Under the pieces are notes generated by a model. The model ran no database searches. It saw nothing but the letters and a program-made list of their open reading frames with translations, and was not told where the DNA came from. From assembly GCA_003169695.1 (NCBI GenBank), contig PNAS01000057.1, forward strand, positions 71,597 through 135,596: a DNA stretch of 64,000 nt, in the 5' to 3' direction. Origin of the DNA: Spartobacteria bacterium (lineage in GTDB: Bacteria > Verrucomicrobiota > Verrucomicrobiia > Chthoniobacterales > UBA10450). The translations under genes and the position numbers were made by a program. Below are positions 63,256-63,405 of the stretch, piece after piece; position 1 is the stretch's first letter; every line of letters starts with the position of its first letter.

Positions 63256-63405
63256 TGATGTTCGCCATTCGTCATTCGCCTGGTTCCTCATTCGCTAAAC
63301 TCCGCACGCGAAAGCTTTCGAAGTTCGACATTCGTCACTCGTCATTCGCAGTTGCCTCTCTCCACATTCGTCACTCGGCATTCGGCACTCGTCATTCACC
63401 ACTCG
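63256..63405. repeat. Largest heptamer array cluster in the window
   Basis: e.g. gttcgac attcgtc actcgtc attcgca (63323-63350) and cattcgt cactcgg cattcgg cactcgt cattcac cactcga (63364-63405). Confidence 0.9.

Follow-up and report, generated by a model that had tools for sequence, protein, structure and literature searches.

Tandem arrays of seven-base units are dispersed through the intergenic DNA of this genome, the same heptamers recur at unlinked loci, and two unit families, GTTGGAC and CATTCGN, are polarized toward the next start codon, the polarity being new here. The placement of these two families before gene starts points to a possible control element and away from random stutter. 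We favor, at a probability of roughly 0.48, the reading that the arrays are bacterial heptanucleotide repeats that turn over by slippage and would be kept as sense-strand 5′-leader modules. We analyzed a stretch of 64 kb of contig 79 (the window) and 2.39 Mb (58%) of the 4.14-Mb, 85-contig genome, which is one MAG. Its polynucleotide phosphorylase is 92% identical to that of the MAGs palsa_1413 and AV89 (labelled Spartobacteria, Verrucomicrobia), with Chthoniobacter and its kin next, which places the source, a soil bacterium, among the uncultured Chthoniobacterales.

Arrays were measured as lag-7 segment scores, with order-3 Markov nulls for the window and a cut-off score of at least 13 in the 2.39 Mb. 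Five segments in the window scored at least 10 where 0.2 were expected, and the period-7 scan proposed in the initial annotation gave 30 arrays in the 2.39 Mb, compared to 0–2 at the same cut-off for most other non-triplet periods (5, 8, 10, 11, 13, 16, 17, 19, 20, 22, and 23, each). Periods 6, 12, 18, and 24 are strong too; the first three, which we tested for place, lie almost wholly in coding DNA, and the signals at period 6 and at most other multiples of 3 come from coding repeats. Hexamer-periodic coding repeats (GTTGGN/GTAGGN) were seen at L060, L062, L131, L092, and elsewhere, several of them located at the ends of contigs, where they may interrupt the assembly. The repeats are, as had been claimed, heptameric, dispersed, on both strands, and mostly intergenic: 23 of the 30 arrays lie between genes, where only 20% of the DNA lies. 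Intergenic DNA alone shows an excess of five-mers recurring at lags 7, 14, and 21, and this excess weakly persists once the strong arrays are taken out.

The single degenerate consensus RTTSGNC that had been proposed for all arrays fails, because the array at 7966 is built of GGATTTC and others of GTTGAGA, CTTTCCG, or GTGACGA. We distinguish several families instead (GTTGGAC, CATTCGN, ATTKCRG, GTTGAGA, GTTGATG, CTTTCCG, GTGACGA, and others), for which an RTT frame is a description with no proven constraint, some arrays lacking RTT. A loose profile of the proposed type (RTTSRNC) showed no genome-wide excess over simulated sequence (97 matches vs 95), although 58 of the 97 are intergenic and the window is motif-rich, with 16 threefold RTTSRNC matches against about 2.5 expected from its share of the simulation.

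Individual units do recur. Doubled GTTGGAC was found at 9 unlinked loci in the 2.39 Mb, and composites of heptads in a fixed order occur at 44 places in one other lineage (two genomes) and at about 69 in a second (two genomes, 65 in one). Among 58 relatives, heptads of the form RTTNNNN exceed a reversed-pattern control in most genomes, and the dominant unit differs from genome to genome; across the phylum heptads are equally patchy, with some families near zero. These tests on relatives rest on pattern-match counts and the matched strings. Array size ranges widely between loci, up to 18 CATTCGN-type units in a row at G004 C13, and in the sole ortholog pair that aligns well the two arrays have the same number of units. 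Within the same order, the 5.2-Mb genome G049 holds 953 fivefold RTTNNNN matches, by far the order's maximum, with a control that is also high (273).

Twelve loci in the window had been listed as heptad arrays. Five are individually significant (2703, 7966, 32497, 33401, and 63317–63397), two are borderline (61260 and 34117), and five (31520, 39042, 40697, 46994, and 52573) are inseparable from chance under the Markov null by lag-7 score alone. The array at 63256–63405 proved real but interrupted, and all of its parts read on the plus strand. Three CATTCGN heptads (GTTCGCC, ATTCGTC, ATTCGCC) at 63261–63280 lie directly 3′ of the stop that closes a decayed ORF6N-like frame and are weak alone; the array at 63317–63348 (TTCGAAG, TTCGACA, TTCGTCA, CTCGTCA, TTCG) scores 12.5, with 0.02 such segments expected per 64 kb; and a continuation at 63365–63405 (CATTCGT, CACTCGG, CATTCGG, CACTCGT, CATTC and onward) carries the significant array to 63397. 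These last heptads lie on the sense strand of a Fic-like gene, about 50 nt upstream, and the leader of the orthologous gene in G004 holds CATTCGN arrays that are likewise in sense. The ORF6N-like frame, named by eye, occupies 63040–63255 and ends in ...PPPPPKPQIGLKP immediately before the array; a similar ORF6N-like gene end at L020 (about 1390–1450) likewise has a CATTCGN array following it. Direct repeats of TTGACT type at 63407–63445, just 5′ of the Fic-like gene, are conserved in G004 and G002 and may be an operator.

A five-unit CATTCGN array lies on the minus strand at 33401–33433 (score 21; 0.00 expected per 64 kb) and ends 4 nt before the ATG of an ornithine-cyclodeaminase-like gene, 32458–33396(−). 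Overlapping the 3′ end of that gene on the plus strand, GTTCGAY units, a pyrimidine tract, and a CATTCGN array follow one another at 32467–32530 (score 16.5), with an individually significant segment at 32497–32527 (0.00 expected per 64 kb). The GGATTTC array at 7966–7996(+) scores 19 (0.00 expected per 64 kb) and lies 48 nt 5′ of the ATG at 8045 of an rpoA-like gene. An antisense CATTCGN-type array at 2703–2733(−) scores 11.5 (0.03 expected per 64 kb), overlaps the end of gene 1321–2751, and lies 10 nt before an ATG at 2744. Four further loci on the plus strand are weaker: an NTTCGNN array between convergent genes at 34117–34146 (borderline, 1.9 expected per 64 kb), two to three units of ATTGGACGTTGGACGTT at 61260–61275 (borderline, 0.67 expected per 64 kb), four units (GTTCGCG, ATTGGAC, GTTCGCC, ATTCGCT) at 39042–39074 that are not significant alone, and a near-perfect hairpin built of heptads, GTTGAACGTTGGACG...CAACGTTCAAT, at 31520–31549 (fold z −5.3), of which the lag-7 score alone is not significant (3.2 expected per 64 kb).

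Copies had been described as lying in both orientations; for GTTGGAC and CATTCGN, however, orientation relative to the next gene matters. Nearly all of the nine GTTGGAC loci in the discovery genome appeared directed at a gene start, which prompted a test of polarity using starts predicted by a home-made caller. The RTTSRNC profile is nearly palindromic and so produces overlapping false pairs, and it was left out. For 8 of 12 intergenic GTTGGAC/CATTCG arrays in this genome, the caller places a start no more than 80 nt away in the sense direction, compared to 11% of random intergenic positions (P ~7e-6). Other families in this genome showed no polarity (5 sense vs 4 antisense among 19 arrays), and over all arrays in codirectional gaps there was no orientation bias (10 same vs 7 opposite); the polarity is confined to the two families. 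Some arrays (2703, 32497, and 34121) are placed otherwise, on the antisense strand, between convergent genes, or across the end of a gene.

Relatives provided a partly independent test. In eight genomes of the genus, an ATG lies 4 to 30 nt beyond the sense end of GTTGGAC arrays at 56 loci and beyond the antisense side at 19 (two-sided P ~2e-5; equal search windows on both sides, with chance ATGs contained in the counts at an expected 20–32% per 28 nt); outside the discovery genome the numbers are 51 and 18. Where neighboring arrays lie on opposite strands they diverge, in 11 of 11 GTTGGAC pairs (82 arrays; spacing 39–416 bp) and in 5 of 5 CATTCGN pairs (read from the list), the arrangement predicted for two divergent genes with one arm leading into each; in some of these pairs, such as G006 C3:136017/136184 and C25:92503/92664, both arms have an ATG past their ends. 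The culturable relative Chthoniobacter flavus Ellin428 also has GTTGG-type arrays in a divergent pair (L166:8073–8190). Across the genus, an ATG comes after doubled CATTCGN at 60 loci, the median distance from the final in-phase ATT being 7 nt; this count has no antisense comparator because antisense CATTCGN itself contains ATG. The spacer is 76% pyrimidine after GTTGGAC and 67% after CATTCGN, compared to 52% upstream of 546 ATG genes, among which a pyrimidine tract was not seen as a general leader feature. Shine-Dalgarno-like motifs were found in 7% of leaders vs 4% of controls, in a genome with few such sites. By reading of their proteins, with no family search, the genes 3′ of arrays resemble ribulose-phosphate epimerase (rpe, at L096), RNase HIII, and glycogen synthase (glgA), with CinA, CbiX-like (L030), and ornithine-cyclodeaminase-like genes among the further ones; arrays of other families precede RpoA-like and SecDF-like genes.

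Orthologous sites were compared mainly with one relative, AV89 (L151), which is largely collinear with the window over 30.8–40 kb; about one nucleotide in five differs between the genomes compared. At 33401 the array keeps its site, phase, and all five units, at a nearly equal distance from the ATG. Four in-phase units remain at the 39042 site with their letters changed, the 34121 site has NTTCNNN heptads in both genomes with TTCG replaced by TTCT in nearly all L151 units (NTTCTNN), and at the 32467 site CAACTCC stands in place of CATTCGN. L153 has no counterpart of the GGATTTC array (7966) at the orthologous position in its rpoA leader. Sites can thus persist while their units turn over together, and arrays also come and go, which leaves no individual array demonstrably required.

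The main competing view, which we consider rather unlikely, is that the arrays are an unselected by-product of slippage: polymerase slippage would favor 7-nt loops, and repeats would survive where insertions are tolerated, between genes. The many unrelated heptamers with period alone in common, the wide range of sizes (to the 18 units of G004 C13), the turnover of units at orthologous sites, and the missing rpoA-leader array all fit this view, as does the account of Mrazek et al., in the part described in PMC4679880, that heptamers are the commonest 5–11-nt repeats in most of their genomes, ascribed there to slippage. Polarity would then arise incidentally, for instance through mutation linked to transcription or through selection acting against antisense copies, because every CATTCGN unit read in antisense contains an ATG. 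That argument is inapplicable to GTTGGAC, which has no ATG in antisense and yet is the most polarized family. Nor can independent slippage yield one GTTGGAC unit at nine loci of one genome, or account for a composite of fixed order at 44 places in one lineage and about 69 in another, and the array at 33401 retains unit number and position across about a fifth nucleotide difference. Local slippage thus explains the period, size variation, and unit turnover and leaves out the shared units, polarity, and conserved site, which selection in 5′ leaders does explain; we therefore favor leader modules maintained by slippage. A counterpoint is that ATTKCRG and other families lack polarity and form convergent hairpin pairs instead.

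Under the favored reading of slippage-maintained leader modules, 7-nt slippage or conversion would make and homogenize the copies, which would account for unit turnover at conserved sites, and arrays would be retained in 5′ leaders through a cis action on initiation of the downstream gene. Most simply, they would offer a putative binder a repeated platform, located either in promoter DNA or at the mRNA 5′ end, in a genome where Shine-Dalgarno-like sites are few; mobility may have aided dispersal. A bolder version, which we regard as speculative and improbable, is that the seven-base rhythm rather than the sequence is conserved: a Verrucomicrobiota factor would read sense-strand 5′-leader heptads and help initiate core-gene expression where Shine-Dalgarno sites are rare, and genomes would drift to their own heptamer while period, polarity, and site are kept.

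Some arrays form the arms of strong hairpins (L029 z −9.4, L035 z −5.4, and 31520 in the window), and the ATTKCRG family makes convergent hairpins that fill gaps between codirectional genes; at L035:120–215 and L096:9108–9202, the entire gap from stop to next start is one hairpin of ATTGCAG-type heptads. The array at 63256–63405 folds no better than shuffles (z 0.76), which rules out the hairpin as a universal array form. Palindromes of the REP/MITE type are dispersed and intergenic, some copies having strong hairpins, and the heptads could be the arms of such mobile or copied inverted repeats with defined ends, their tandem look being internal structure. The fixed-order composites, the short-looped inverted pairs of L029 and L035, the 70–73-bp spacing of four of the five CATTCGN pairs, the edge sequences that recur around GTTGGAC arrays, and the other dispersed palindromic families of the same genome point in this direction. 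We nevertheless consider such an origin improbable: unit number varies, the spacing of GTTGGAC pairs is loose, most arrays are single (11 opposite-strand pairs among 82 arrays, rather than an inverted repeat in every copy), no target-site duplication was noticed by eye, and the divergent G006 pairs with an ATG beyond each arm resemble two leaders facing apart. Chance matches to a loose consensus picked by eye would suit the five weak window loci and the unremarkable RTTSRNC total, but are hardly credible, since the lag-7 scores of the strong arrays refute them (five arrays in the window and 30 in the 2.39 Mb, far above the null) and it is only in intergenic DNA that period 7 stands out.

The comparison with short tandem repeats of other bacteria stands. 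Cyanobacterial STRRs have a period of seven and are dispersed and mostly non-coding, and our arrays, with tandem 7-nt units beyond chance and 23 of 30 intergenic, share these properties. The heptanucleotide long simple sequence repeats of Mrazek et al. (2007), as far as they are described in PMC4679880, are defined by repeat length or sequence, and start-codon polarity and inverted pairing fall outside that definition. The earlier remark that no named equivalent matches this consensus can be supplemented by two related systems, neither of which has it, and a literature search with exact repeat strings gave no relevant paper and none with this consensus (the sole match, on Aspergillus, is unrelated). 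TAACTGA repeats of Cand. Maribeggiatoa and other Beggiatoaceae are intergenic tandem 7-mers of 2–6 copies, mostly forward and just 5′ of start codons without a canonical RBS, before genes with no common function, and some are split by related 7-mers (PMC4679880). Our arrays resemble them in heptamer length, copy number, intergenic location, splitting by related 7-mers, lack of an RBS, the varied functions of the genes that follow, and forward orientation close before start codons, the last within a few nucleotides for the GTTGGAC and CATTCGN families only. They differ in comprising several degenerate families, where TAACTGA is one invariant heptamer accompanied by rare related units and a single inverted repeat, and in often forming divergent pairs, being followed by a pyrimidine spacer, and having units replaced at orthologous sites; TAACTGA is not a unit of the arrays listed for this genome. 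GGGNATC repeats of Xanthomonas and Nostoc are intergenic heptamers of variable unit number, strand-biased within 50 bp upstream of ORFs and followed by metabolic genes; they are rich in G, have been shown to form G-quadruplexes, and are rarer than expected between divergent ORFs (PMC4692102). Heptamer length, intergenic location, strand bias near starts, and metabolic genes downstream are common to both, whereas our arrays lack GGG tracts (main-family units have at most GG, and four consecutive GGG tracts were not found) and in the genus occur as divergent pairs. With neither unit present, our arrays belong to neither group, and both serve as working analogies.

For decades, heptamer repeats have turned up in one bacterium or another, and no agreed function has emerged. 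In the present case a single phylum provides several families and a clear rule (a position on the sense strand shortly before the start codon, and pairs that diverge), dominant heptamers that differ between genomes, and an ortholog pair that retains site and period while the unit changes, and through these the old question of slippage waste vs initiation signal becomes directly testable.

Several further repeats were noted. The genome (G000, 2.39 Mb) holds other dispersed intergenic repeats, such as the palindromic TTGTAGGGCGTCTGTGTCAGACGCCCTACAA, TGTCATCCCGAGC, GAGGGACCTC, and TCTCGTTAG. An imperfect hairpin, CGCTCGCGAAYGC-TTTCGGAG, recurs in the window at 46994–47050, 52545–52600, and 63303–63320 and also at L070, L131, and L014, often adjoining TTGGAC heptads. 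A strongly conserved non-coding stretch at 7885–7965, 5′ of the rpoA-like gene and common to L153, is a possible leader RNA; an Rfam search of the window, this stretch included, gave no family match at gathering score. Finally, the ORF at 55898–56767 contains five tandem copies of a 24-bp unit at 56143–56261.
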